In this document: positions 1-4,430 of the stretch, one piece after another | Numbering within the stretch: position 1 is the first letter of the stretch | Layout of the letters: each line of letters begins with the position of its first letter | IMG/VR virus record: IMGVR_UViG_3300045912_000952 | Location: 1-23,596 of that record | Direction: 5' to 3' (one strand) | DNA: 23,596 nt | Origin: a virus | Made by a program: the position numbers and the translations under genes | The notes under the pieces: generated by a model | What the model was told of the DNA's origin: nothing | What the model saw: only the letters and a program-made list of their open reading frames with translations | The model's database searches: none

Positions 1-669
1 TCAGCCCTCTCTTGTCAGATCGGTGTAACCGAGCTGTTCCAGGACCCAAGGATCAGCGCGGCGCACCACACCGGTCCGCATGTTGTCGGGGTACTCGGCC
101 AGATACCGGCGCTGCGTGTAGTAGTCGAAGTCCATCGACCGGCGCTGTAGCAATTGCGAGTTGTTCACGCGGCGCTTGAACACGTGGACATGACCGCCTC
201 GCCGCCGCAACGAGAAATGTTCGCCGATCCGCAGGTACTGCCGGCGGGCGTCGTCCAGCGACATCATGTCCTCGCTGCGTACCGCGATGCCGCGTTCCGG
301 GTGCGCCTGGAGCCACTCCAGGTAATGCCGGTTGACGGCATTCCAGCGGTCCAGCGGCGTTGGCCAGTCGTAATGCCGGTTGGTCAGGAAGTCGGCAAAC
401 GGCCACCCCTTGCGAAAGTGCGGACAGCCGTCGCGGTCGCCGGAAAAGCTCCAACGGTACATCGACACCAGCCAGGCCAACGGCTCCCGGAAGCAGCAGA
501 TGATGACCGGGATGTCGTCGCCGGACCGACCAATCTTGCCGTGCTTCCATTCGCGGCCGCGCTCCCGGCTGGTCACGAAGAAGTTCGCCTTCAGCCCCTT
601 GAGCACCACGTTGGTACATGTCCGTTGCAAGCCGAACATCTTGACGGACGGAACGGGTTCAGCCGGCAT
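1..669 (-). CDS. PAPS-dependent sulfotransferase-like protein
   Basis: A 222-aa protein of the sulfotransferase P-loop fold, expected to move a sulfo group from PAPS to an acceptor, probably a sugar. The 5'-phosphosulfate loop is GLQRTCTN at residues 13-20, a variant of the usual QRSGTN. The 3'-phosphate site is the R-x7-S pattern of the family: Arg61 to Ser69 in FREPLAWLVS, followed by MYRW. The start at 669 was chosen because GGAGA lies 5 bases upstream and it overlaps the glycosyltransferase end by 11 bases; a longer frame back to 756 would run deep inside that gene. It is short for the family and ends at the window edge with TGA. Fold is fairly certain; the acceptor is unknown. The coupled glycosyltransferase suggests a glycan product. 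Confidence 0.78.
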   Translation of the reverse strand: MPAEPVPSVKMFGLQRTCTNVVLKGLKANFFVTSRERGREWKHGKIGRSGDDIPVIICCFREPLAWLVSMYRWSFSGDRDGCPHFRKGWPFADFLTNRHYDWPTPLDRWNAVNRHYLEWLQAHPERGIAVRSEDMMSLDDARRQYLRIGEHFSLRRRGGHVHVFKRRVNNSQLLQRRSMDFDYYTQRRYLAEYPDNMRTGVVRRADPWVLEQLGYTDLTREG

Positions 670-2008
670 GGTCGGTCTCCAGCGGAATGAACTCGACGGG
701 CATCCTTTCGTGTTCGAGCCATTGCCCGTGCCAGGAACCGTCGCCATTGCGCTCAAGGTGACAGGTGGGCCGGTCCAGCCGGCTGAGCGTCAGGATCGCC
801 CGGCCGTCTTCGATGTTCACGTCCCAGCGGCGCTCGCACTCGGCCGCGCCTTCGCCAACTTTTCCGGCTCGCTCCAGACGCATCGGCCGCTCATCGTGGC
901 CAACCCGCCGATACAAGAAGCGCCGGCCGGCCAACTCTTCGATGGCCCGCTGCTCTTCGGGCGTCGGGTCCAGGTTGTGCCAGAGGACGCCGTCCCAGCG
1001 CTTGCGGAGGTCAGCGACGAGGTTGAAGCACAGTTCCTCGTTGGCCAGCGAGTTGTTGCGGCGGTTGCCGGCCAGCCGCCACTTGTCCTGGCAGCGGTGC
1101 TGAAAGACGATCTGGTCCTGGAAGTCATACTGCACGATGGTGTGCTGGTTCCAGCCAGGGGCCTTGCGCGGCATCGCGTACTCGGTCCCCAGGAACCGCC
1201 AACCCAAGTGGAAACATTCCTTGTCGCCATACACGACCCGGAACACGAAGTCCGAATGCTCGGCGTACCACAGCGCCATTTGCAGTTCGCGCCAGCAGCG
1301 AATCTTGTCGATCAGGTACTGGCCAGACTCGAAGGCGATCTCCTTCTGCGCCTGGGGAACCATCCAGTCCATGCCGAAGATGGTCCAGACCTCCGGCTTC
1401 AGCGTCCAGCAGGCGTAGTCGGGCCAGAAGATCGCACCGTGCTCCCGGAACTGCGGCGTGTCGAAGAGGTAGCTCACGTCCCGCACCGGCCCGTTGTCGG
1501 CGTCGAGGAAGAGGACCTGGGCGAACGGCGAGTGGAGCGTCGAATACGGCTTCAGCTCCCAGCCGCAGAGAATGCGGCAGGGAAAGTCCTTCTCCAACTT
1601 GCGGGCATCGACACATTCGACGCCGAAGGGCTTGAGCAGCCGCTTCATGTACGGATCGCATTCCGCGTCGCCCAGATACCAGAGCTGGATCGGCAGCTTG
1701 CAGCCGAAATGCCGGACCAGGTTGACGCCGACCCACACGTTGGGGAAATACTTGAGGCCGCCTCCGGCGATGACGATGCCGCGCTCCTCGGCGTAGGCAT
1801 GCCGCCCTGGCGTCAGATTGTCGGCAAAGCGCCGGGCCATGACGCGGTGGGCTTCGTTGACGTTGGGCCAGGATGCCCAACCTGAGGGCCACGGGCCAGG
1901 CGGGGCGTGCTCGATCAACCGGATCATCTCTTCGACCGACACGTCCGGCGTGGCCGAGGCGCACTTGGTCCAGTCGATGGCGGTTTCTTGCATGGCGGTT
2001 GTGCTCAT
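659..2008 (-). CDS. Mnn1/GT71-like glycosyltransferase
   Basis: A 449-aa protein resembling the alpha-mannosyltransferase MNN1/MNN2 family (GT71, nucleotide-sugar dependent). Residues 77-115 give the Rossmann-like start (GIVIAGGGLKYF, then LPIQLWYLGDAE). The metal/nucleotide-sugar DxD motif is LFLDADN, Asp169 and Asp171, followed by an FWPDY segment. The last 80 or so residues look beta-rich and may be an accessory domain. The start at 2008 is fixed by an ATGA overlap with the upstream Ser/Gly-repeat gene and a GGGAG site 5 bases before it; an in-frame ATG at 2020 is less likely. It has no signal peptide or membrane segment, so it should act in the cytoplasm. Family is fairly sure; donor and acceptor are unknown. 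The flanking genes suggest it decorates the fibre or makes a glycan that is then sulfated. Confidence 0.75.
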   Translation of the reverse strand: MSTTAMQETAIDWTKCASATPDVSVEEMIRLIEHAPPGPWPSGWASWPNVNEAHRVMARRFADNLTPGRHAYAEERGIVIAGGGLKYFPNVWVGVNLVRHFGCKLPIQLWYLGDAECDPYMKRLLKPFGVECVDARKLEKDFPCRILCGWELKPYSTLHSPFAQVLFLDADNGPVRDVSYLFDTPQFREHGAIFWPDYACWTLKPEVWTIFGMDWMVPQAQKEIAFESGQYLIDKIRCWRELQMALWYAEHSDFVFRVVYGDKECFHLGWRFLGTEYAMPRKAPGWNQHTIVQYDFQDQIVFQHRCQDKWRLAGNRRNNSLANEELCFNLVADLRKRWDGVLWHNLDPTPEEQRAIEELAGRRFLYRRVGHDERPMRLERAGKVGEGAAECERRWDVNIEDGRAILTLSRLDRPTCHLERNGDGSWHGQWLEHERMPVEFIPLETDHAG

Positions 2009-3750
2009 AAAGGCTCCCATGTGAAATCAAATTGCCAGTACGCGCCGACGTGGTAGAGCGGGTCGTTGGTGCTGGAATAGAGCTCGATCAGATGATCGCC
2101 GGCGGGCAGGTCGATGGAGCCGTCAGCGTTGACGGTGGTCATGGCGCAGCCGAGGTCCTCGCCGACCGAACCGCCCGATGCGACGAGCGCACCGTTGACG
2201 CGGGTTTCGCCGTAATCGAAGCCGAAGTCTTGCCGCTCCACGTTCCCGGTCATGTGGACGGTCAGGCGCTTGGGAGCGTTGAGGCAGACGCGGCGCGAGG
2301 CCGTGCCGGATTGCGTGTTGGCGTTCGGGCCGCCGCAGACGTAGGAATTCTCGAAACTGATGCGGACGGACCAGCCGTCGCCGGACCAGGATGCCCCGCC
2401 AGACGCTTGCATCTCCCAGGGGTTCTCGGGGCAGGGGCTGCCGCTCGATGGGCCGCTGGCCGAGCCAGGACCAGACGAACCGCCAGGTGCCGAACCAGAG
2501 CCGCCAGAGCCGCCGCTTGAACCCGCGCCGCCGCTCGACCCCTGGCCACTGCTCGTACCGGAGCCACCAGGCGCGGAGCCGCTGGCCGCGCCCGACGATC
2601 CCAGGCCGGACGAGCCGACACCACTGCCCGAAGCCGGGCCACTTCCCGATGCGGAGCCTGAGCCGGGCGAGCCGCTCGATGCCGACCCGCTTCCCGACGC
2701 GCCCGGGGCCGATCCTGATCCGCTTCCCGACGAGCCGCCGATCCCACTCGACGCGCCCGAGCTGTCGATGCCGCTGCCCGACTGCGACCCGCTCGACCCC
2801 GAAGCGCCGCTGGTGCCCGAACTTGGCCCGCTGGTCCCTGACATGCCTTCGCTGCCGGAAGCCGAAGCGGACCCAGAACCGCTCGCCGACCCGCTGGGGC
2901 CGAAACTCGCGCCCGAGGAGCCGCTCGATCCGGGACCGCTGCCGGACGAGCCACTGACACCGGACGACCCGCTGACGCCAGAGCTTTCCCCCGACAAGCC
3001 GCTTGTGCCGGACGATACACCGGAGGAGCCAACCGATCCCGACGATCCGCTCGGACCGGAACTTTCACCAGACGACCCGGACAGGCCTGACGATCCGCCG
3101 ATGCCCGAGCTGGCCCCGGATGAGCCGGAACCTTCTCCCGACGAACCGCTTGCCCCCGAACTTTCCCCCGACGAACCGGACAGTCCCGAGGAACCGGACG
3201 ACCCGCTGATGCCCGAGCTTTCACCGGAGGAGCCGCTGAAACCAGAACTTTCGCCGGACGATCCACTGACGCCAGAACTCTCTCCCGATGAACCGCTGAT
3301 GCCAGAACTCTCGCCGGACGACCCGCTGAAACCTGAGCTTTCCCCTGAAGAGCCGCTTTCGCCCGACGAGCCGCTGAACCCAAAGCTTTCTCCCGAAGAC
3401 CCGCTTTCCCCGGAGGAACCACTGAACCCCGAACTTTCTCCCGATGATCCGCTCTCGCCGGACGAACCGCTCGACGATTCCAAGCAGCAGCCCAGTGCGT
3501 ACACCGGCATGCCGTCTGCCGCCATGCCGACGAAGCGCATCAGGTAGCGGCCGATGCGCGGGAACTCGCAGGTGGAGTAGCCGTAGAGCGGCAAATCATC
3601 GACAAGTCCCAGGAAGCTGGCCAGCAGCCGGGGCACGGAGGCCTGGAACGCCGCCGGCCCCGAACCCGAGCCGGGGCAGCCGATGGCGAACAGCGGCACA
3701 TCACCTTTCGGCCCCAGGTAACGCGCCAGGTATCGCTGCCGCTGGATCAT
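2005..3750 (-). CDS. Ser/Gly-repeat fibre-like tail protein
   Basis: A 581-aa three-part protein. Residues 1-91 hold three copies of a motif close to G...D.PL(F/Y)..GC, at about 11-25, 46-61 and 73-88, each ending in cysteine. Residues 92-439 are an almost pure Ser/Gly/Glu tract built from 10-residue units (xSGSSGESSG) and 6-residue units (SSGESG), degenerating toward the C-terminal side. Residues 440-581 form a globular, probably beta-sandwich domain with four Cys and a closing YWQFDFTWEPL. The start at 3750 is set by an ATGA overlap with the gene upstream; a longer frame to 3945 is arginine-rich shadow. Its place after the tape measure and two tail genes suggests a tail fibre or adhesin. 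I recognise no named family. The Ser-rich stalk is an obvious possible glycosylation target for the coupled downstream enzymes; that is inference. Confidence 0.72.
   Translation of the reverse strand: MIQRQRYLARYLGPKGDVPLFAIGCPGSGSGPAAFQASVPRLLASFLGLVDDLPLYGYSTCEFPRIGRYLMRFVGMAADGMPVYALGCCLESSSGSSGESGSSGESSGFSGSSGESGSSGESFGFSGSSGESGSSGESSGFSGSSGESSGISGSSGESSGVSGSSGESSGFSGSSGESSGISGSSGSSGLSGSSGESSGASGSSGEGSGSSGASSGIGGSSGLSGSSGESSGPSGSSGSVGSSGVSSGTSGLSGESSGVSGSSGVSGSSGSGPGSSGSSGASFGPSGSASGSGSASASGSEGMSGTSGPSSGTSGASGSSGSQSGSGIDSSGASSGIGGSSGSGSGSAPGASGSGSASSGSPGSGSASGSGPASGSGVGSSGLGSSGAASGSAPGGSGTSSGQGSSGGAGSSGGSGGSGSAPGGSSGPGSASGPSSGSPCPENPWEMQASGGASWSGDGWSVRISFENSYVCGGPNANTQSGTASRRVCLNAPKRLTVHMTGNVERQDFGFDYGETRVNGALVASGGSVGEDLGCAMTTVNADGSIDLPAGDHLIELYSSTNDPLYHVGAYWQFDFTWEPL
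2434..3477. repeat. Degenerate 30-bp coding repeat array
   Basis: The tract encodes the Ser/Gly stalk of the fibre-like protein. The basic unit is 30 bp (10 codons), interspersed with 18-bp units; regularity is best at 3100-3477 and fades toward 2434. Neighbouring units differ mainly at third codon positions: Gly as GGG or GGT, Ser as TCG or TCA, Gly as GGC or GGA. The protein has therefore been kept while the DNA drifted. There is no spacer/repeat alternation, so this is not a CRISPR array. Confidence 0.9.
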
Positions 3751-4430
3751 TGGTTGATGTCCACCACCTTGCACTCGAACAGCGTTTGCCAGGTCTTCGT
3801 GTCTACGTCGTAGCGCTGCACGACGCCGGGGTAATAGCCGTCGTCGTCGGGCACGTTGCTGGTGATGAGCACATGGGCCTGGTAGTCGCCGTCGTCCAGC
3901 CGCACCACGGCCCAGCGCTCGGTGGAACCGGTGTCCTCGACCCACAGCACCCTCGCCGAGCCGTGCGGAACGTTTCGCAGAGCGCCCGTCTCTCCCGCTT
4001 GCACTTCGGCGAAATCGTAAAGCTGGTCTGGGTTGACCCGCAGGCGCACCGGCGTCACGCCCGCAACAATCCCCCGGCCGATGGCATCCTTGGCCAGCGG
4101 TTCCAGCAGGACGGCGTAACGCCCGCTGCGCGGCGGGTCCTCCGGCACGTCGCCGTCAAAGTTGACCCGGTTCTTGAACTCCCGCAGGTTGTCGGCCGGG
4201 CCAATGATCGGGTCTTGCAGTGCCAGGATGCTGTACCGCTGCTGATCCAAGCCCGTGATGTTGCGGACCTTGACGATCCCGGTCTGGCGAATCTCCTCGC
4301 CCGACTGCGACTCGTTGCTGTGCTGTCGGGCGCGGACGTAACGCGAGGCGTCGAGGAAGGCGTTGAACGCCTCGGCGGGAATCTGCAGCCGCTGCCCAGG
4401 CTGCACCTTCTTGAGCGGGTCGCCCGGCAT
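3747..4430 (-). CDS. Tail-region protein of unknown function
   Basis: A 227-aa soluble protein without signal peptide or membrane segment. It opens with MPGDPLKKVQPGQRL, then a probable helix (IPAEAFNAFLDASRYVR, about 17-33), then mixed beta-rich sequence with acidic loops to the C-terminus. I do not recognise a named family. It starts one base after the end of the upstream gene, with GGAG about 8 bases before the ATG. Its own stop is inside the ATGA of the fibre-like gene, so it belongs to the tail operon and its product is probably made in a fixed ratio to the fibre. A minor tail, baseplate or fibre-attachment role is a guess from position only. Confidence 0.6.
   Translation of the reverse strand: MPGDPLKKVQPGQRLQIPAEAFNAFLDASRYVRARQHSNESQSGEEIRQTGIVKVRNITGLDQQRYSILALQDPIIGPADNLREFKNRVNFDGDVPEDPPRSGRYAVLLEPLAKDAIGRGIVAGVTPVRLRVNPDQLYDFAEVQAGETGALRNVPHGSARVLWVEDTGSTERWAVVRLDDGDYQAHVLITSNVPDDDGYYPGVVQRYDVDTKTWQTLFECKVVDINQ

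Follow-up and report, generated by a model that had tools for sequence, protein, structure and literature searches.

A phage tail stalk gene coupled to a glycosyltransferase gene and optional methyl- and sulfotransferase genes: a candidate virion self-glycosylation cassette in phages of Planctomycetota

The window, i.e. the whole stretch of DNA that was analysed, comes from IMG/VR, where it is a virus record with a length of 23,596 bases; every visible phage gene in it lies on the minus strand. From the translations we named a helicase, a primase, a ParB/methylase, a terminase, a portal and a protease-capsid gene, and profile matches identified the tail tube (PF06199) and the tape measure (PHROG 2e-49). 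Behind the tape measure gene lie two more tail genes, followed by the stalk gene, a glycosyltransferase (GT) gene and a sulfotransferase (ST) gene. The second of the two tail genes (3747..4430, 227 aa) shares an ATGA overlap (3747-3750) with the stalk gene, which starts with an ATG at 3750, extends over 2005-3750 and encodes 581 aa. Another ATGA (2005-2008) joins the stalk gene to the GT gene (659..2008, 449 aa), and the GT gene in turn overlaps the ST gene (1..669, 222 aa) by 11 bp (659-669). The sequence-only reading, which had proposed three adjoining genes coupled by ATGA and 11-bp overlaps, was thus borne out in arrangement and place, all three genes lying on the minus strand; its coordinates were correct, as were the motifs that it had named, DxD in the GT (D169-A-D171) and R-x7-S in the ST (R61/S69). 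Since the contig terminates exactly at the ST stop codon, the operon probably continues beyond it.

The stalk protein can be divided into an N-terminal domain (SG_N, 3478..3750), a Ser/Gly stalk (2440..3477) and a C-terminal tip (2008..2439). SG_N consists of three repeats of ∼30 residues with the pattern R-Y-L-x-R-x-x-G...P-L-Y...C, and its alignment over 13 phages (A3) shows 21 invariant columns. The stalk (residues 92-437), the candidate glycan acceptor, contains 156 Ser and 116 Gly in 346 aa (78.6% S+G), in agreement with the ∼350 residues initially estimated, and lies far outside the other window proteins tested, which contain 8-17% S+G and no 60-residue segment above 0.28. All six Ser codons are used in the stalk, so it is the protein repeat and not a DNA repeat that is kept. 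A tRNA-SeC called by ARAGORN at 2474-2555 was rejected, as it lies inside the repeat ORF and is almost surely a repeat false positive. The tip was modelled as a jelly-roll beta-sandwich (AlphaFold2, pLDDT 88.6, pTM 0.86), a fold similar to that of carbohydrate-binding modules and of the tips of phage fibres: Foldseek returned CBM6/35/61-like matches from the PDB (E 1e-5 to 1e-4, at low TM-scores of 0.35-0.5) and a resemblance to tail and minor structural proteins among the BFVD viral models. This C-terminal part varies between phages, as receptor-binding parts do, and is exchangeable. Relatives of the tip are also encoded without a stalk (L194:9001-9588 and L205; tblastn E 1e-12 to 4e-13), which indicates that the tip also serves as a module of its own.

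By its sequence the GT is a clear member of PF11051, the GT71-like mannosyltransferase family (E 1.3e-29, 103.8 bits vs a curated cutoff of 22, residues 80-216). Its DxD motif (∼1496-1504) lies within LFLDADNG and is invariant in 11 sequences. A sequence search of the PDB with the GT gave no match, and homologues of GT and ST were absent from 50,697 phage records, where ST matches at E∼2 were rejected as chance. The GT is encoded in 37 viral contigs and 16 genome loci, mostly labelled Planctomycetota (Gemmatales, Isosphaeraceae, Pirellula), and relatives occur in viral contigs as well as in Planctomycetota MAGs. To our knowledge, few phages of this phylum have been described. The GT of the Pirellula-type group continues into a fused second domain, which is GT-A-like (weak Glyco_transf_8 match, 0.011). 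The GT gene of one contig (L010:899-2871) is interrupted by an ORF that has been inserted and looks, by eye, like a response regulator; the opposite end of this contig (L073) bears SG_N, and the contig appears to be circular with stalk and GT adjacent.

The order tape measure, first tail gene (g4432), second tail gene (g3747), stalk and GT is kept in ∼30 contigs. An FkbM methyltransferase gene (PF05050, 7e-17) lies downstream of the GT gene in 27 of the 37 viral loci, the other 10 contigs ending too early. The ST gene was found only in the window and in two further contigs, L006 and L039. Since the order in L039 is GT-ST-FkbM and the window breaks off with the last codon of the ST gene, an FkbM gene probably follows beyond the end of the window contig too. 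Presence of the ST is patchy: the GT of the window groups with those of the ST-less L002 and L003, while the ST-bearing L006 falls outside that group. The ST is optional, and the tailoring slot holds FkbM, ST (three phages) or the fused second GT (Pirellula-type). Of the three genes that had been read as one cassette, the stalk and GT genes are inseparable over ∼35 loci, while the ST gene is optional. The refuting condition of the sequence-only reading, independently distributed genes, thus gave a split outcome. Host genes begin directly behind the cassette in several MAG prophages, so that it forms the phage end there. Defence genes were observed behind the FkbM gene of some cassettes (L004:10436-16219, L044:11220-15455, L015:11761-15840), with matches to Druantia DruE (E 0), BREX BrxF/BrxC (3e-50, 0) and Qat QatA/QatC (7.5e-100, 1.2e-96), and in Planctomycetota this end of the prophage may serve as a hotspot for defence genes.

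A scan with SG_N yielded 50 viral loci, in which the Ser/Gly stalk follows wherever the sequence continues (as a remnant in L071); in the loci that reach far enough the GT always comes after the stalk, without counter-example. L148, which holds an SG_N start and a truncated FkbM gene without stalk and GT, was rejected as such, because unrelated DNA has replaced its middle and the locus is decayed. Divergent GTs are preceded by other repeat types, namely GSAS (L035), SGVSGTSG (L010) and GPSSGPSS (L030). A wider set of loci was obtained by scanning with the preceding tail protein (the 3747..4430 product). In a second phage lineage the Ser/Gly stalk is fused to this upstream tail protein itself and directly followed by a non-homologous GT-B (PF00534, 5e-11 to 8e-11) and then by radical-SAM-like, methyltransferase-like and GT2/FkbM genes. 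In L186, L187 and L189 the radical-SAM-like gene lies between two GT genes (e.g. L186:9841-10701). A third lineage (L210:7001-11926) carries in a row a Thr/Pro mucin-like tail stretch, a GT2, a TOD1/MUCI70 GT, an ST-like gene, assigned by motif only (IPKTAG), and a methyltransferase, and L192 combines a collagen-like repeat with GT2-methyltransferase.

Most tail relatives without a stalk are also without a GT, and the 23 downstream ORFs of eight such loci gave no Pfam match; exceptions are L199, with a GT2 but no low-complexity stalk, and L200, with a collagen-like stalk but no Pfam-recognised GT. Among distinct loci with enough sequence, which were classified by hand and are phylogenetically nested, the counts for stalk vs GT were 32/1/1/6 (Fisher p 1e-5); collapsed to lineages they were 4/1/1/3 and not significant (p 0.2). 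It is not the count that makes the association strong, but the conservation of the pairing and the fact that stalks were paired anew and independently with non-homologous GTs. That stalk and GT are inseparable supports a glycosylation of the stalk.

The window ST by itself gave no match in searches of Pfam, PHROGs, NCBIfam or the PDB, nor in 392 Planctomycetota genomes (a set without positive control), and an alignment-based scan of viral contigs found no further relative. A viral ST family with the motifs FGLQRSGTN...WKH...KNPYxWxxS was recovered by a motif-pattern scan. Of its 16 aligned members 11 match Sulfotransfer_3 and 8 Sulfotransfer_1 (best 3e-8), and one member (L120) scores above the curated cutoff. 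The window ST and its two close relatives (L039, 67% identity; L006, 65%) align with this family in hhalign with 98.4% probability (E 8e-15, 194 columns). Since the window ST has no Pfam match itself, its assignment rests on the viral homologue family, and by transitive homology it is a divergent member of the sulfotransferase superfamily with an FGLQRTCTN loop, WKH and R61-x7-S69. The identity first suggested for this protein holds through the profile match to the viral family, and not through a direct match to a sulfotransferase profile. The predicted activity is uncertain, because a Cys replaces the usual Gly of the PAPS loop (5'-PSB) in the window and L039 (RTCTN); L006 has RSGTN. The R-x7-S of the 3'-PB is present in the window ST. 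AlphaFold2 models of the ST, for which three sequences were tried, reached a pLDDT of only 39.6.

Genes resembling the ST were also seen elsewhere. A 'hypothetical protein' from an exopolysaccharide cluster of Phaeobacter inhibens (L137; NC_018421.1, 9288-10055) shows weak similarity and shares the GTN...WKH...P..W..S motifs without a Pfam match; it may be an unannotated sulfotransferase. On a marine-type contig (L112:811-2120) a related ST lies beside an FkbM-like gene, and on two others (L115:6199-8887, L124:3677-6285) related STs lie among methyltransferase-like, second sulfotransferase-like and GT25-like genes, all these neighbours being named by eye.

Judged from the sequences, we consider it somewhat probable that the phage O-glycosylates its own tail stalk and finishes the glycan with interchangeable caps, methyl or sulfate groups. 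In a Planctomycetota phage the locus would form the last part of the late (tail) operon, devoted to fibre decoration, and the stalk protein would be a tail fibre or tail-tip spike, attached by its N-terminal domain and bearing on the Ser/Gly stalk a tip of glycan-binding-like type. This protein would be co-translated with a cytoplasmic GT71-type glycosyltransferase, which may add a sugar to the stalk serines before assembly. The enzymes encoded next would tailor this sugar, i.e. the FkbM O-methyltransferase in most relatives and here additionally a PAPS-dependent sulfotransferase, and the methylated or sulfated sugar could result in a hydrophilic, charged and protease-resistant stalk. Gene order, homology, co-occurrence and the fold of the tip are what the analysis shows; the location in the virion, the stalk serines as acceptor and the placement of the sulfate on the glycan are inferences. 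Neither signal peptides nor TM-like segments were observed in stalk protein, GT, ST or FkbM; this suggests cytoplasmic enzymes and fits a modification of a virion protein.

The glycosylation part of this explanation is compatible with the proposal that the third gene encodes a decayed or repurposed P-loop enzyme, which would leave glycosylation and methylation but no sulfation. The exchange of the PAPS-loop Gly for Cys in the window and L039, the lack of an own Pfam match and the patchy presence point in this direction, whereas the open frame, the 65-67% identity between three phages, the retention of the invariant WKH and R-x7-S and the profile match to the family argue for a working enzyme. 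We regard a loss of sulfation as possible, though on the doubtful side.

The main rival to stalk glycosylation, a change of the host surface as the sequence-only reading had also mentioned, is lysogenic conversion or superinfection exclusion, in which GT, FkbM and ST alter a glycan or glycoprotein of the host surface and thereby hide the receptor; the adjacency to the fibre gene would then be coincidental. Such a role appears unlikely to us given the translational overlap with the stalk gene, the strict co-occurrence with the Ser/Gly stalk, the convergent pairing in the second lineage and a cassette without flippase or membrane protein. It nevertheless fits the several MAG prophages in which the cassette borders host genes, the usual site of lysogenic-conversion genes, and the weak similarity of the ST to the Phaeobacter exopolysaccharide-cluster protein. 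Bacterial polysaccharides are common substrates of FkbM proteins and of sulfotransferases.

Alternatively, the enzymes might glycosylate a virion protein other than the stalk, i.e. capsid or tail tube, for which mycobacteriophages with glycans at the C-termini of capsid and tail-tube proteins provide a precedent (Freeman et al. 2023, as summarised in PMC12619734). This seems quite improbable, as the pairing tracks the stalk and not capsid or tube, and stalk-less relatives are mostly without GTs. That the genes are metabolic passengers or glycosylate DNA, unrelated to the tail protein, is very improbable: phage GTs can modify DNA (PMC12619734), but a GT for DNA modification was rejected because no modified-base synthesis gene was recognised in the window, and the constant tail-operon position across ∼30 contigs speaks against passenger genes.

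Beyond the self-glycosylation of a single stalk, we tentatively suggest, with rather less confidence, that Planctomycetota phages coat their tail-fibre stalks with a phage-built, mucin-like O-glycan whose cap is varied as a surface-variation system. The enzyme set would combine GTs, either GT71 or unrelated ones, with a sugar O-methyltransferase, and an exchangeable slot would hold the ST or a second GT. If true, the virus itself would produce glycoproteins with sulfate and methyl groups for its tail, comparable to mucins but made by a bacterial virus, and the unexplained phage sulfotransferases would gain a function; swapping of caps between phages might have consequences for adsorption, protease resistance or recognition. 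The ST stands in a fixed context behind a stalk and an obligate GT, which offers a defined acceptor to test, and the loci supply host-assigned relatives in Planctomycetota.

Serine-rich repeat glycoproteins (SRRP) of Gram-positive bacteria likewise carry a Ser-rich stalk encoded beside their own glycosyltransferases GtfA/GtfB, with a binding domain on the stalk. The analogy to SRRP drawn in the sequence-only reading holds for function but not for the characteristic components: the stalk protein contains no hydrophobic segment (max KD19 1.22) and no LPXTG in its sequence, a test for GtfA/GtfB matched only PF11051, and the match in NCBIfam is weak, compositional and far under the cutoff (20.7 vs 325 bits). 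Unlike the SRRP system with its export signal, anchor and GtfA/B, the locus is a virus tail operon.

The nodZ, noeI and noeE genes of Rhizobium NGR234 decorate the Nod factor (PMC4881576) and resemble the cassette in that separate enzymes for sugar transfer, O-methylation and sulfation act on one molecule; a weak match to NoeE (0.006) was obtained for one member of the ST family. Their acceptor is a lipo-chitooligosaccharide and their GTs belong to other families, whereas the presumed acceptor here is a phage protein. OM43 phages carry Sulfotransfer_3 genes, whose role in phages is stated to be unclear (PMC10580990). The window ST aligns with such phage sulfotransferases by profile comparison, but its gene lies in a fibre-glycosylation context. 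A phage sulfotransferase near GT or methyltransferase genes is not unique to this phage, since other contigs show it and phage sulfotransferases have been reported (PMC10580990). No description of this cassette was found in the literature searched, an absence that is weak evidence. The cassette also resembles mycobacteriophage virion glycosylation, in which phage-encoded GTs are thought to decorate structural proteins, and here too the GT gene sits in a structural operon. It differs in the Ser/Gly fibre stalk, the GT71-type enzyme, the methyl-/sulfotransferase and the Planctomycetota hosts.
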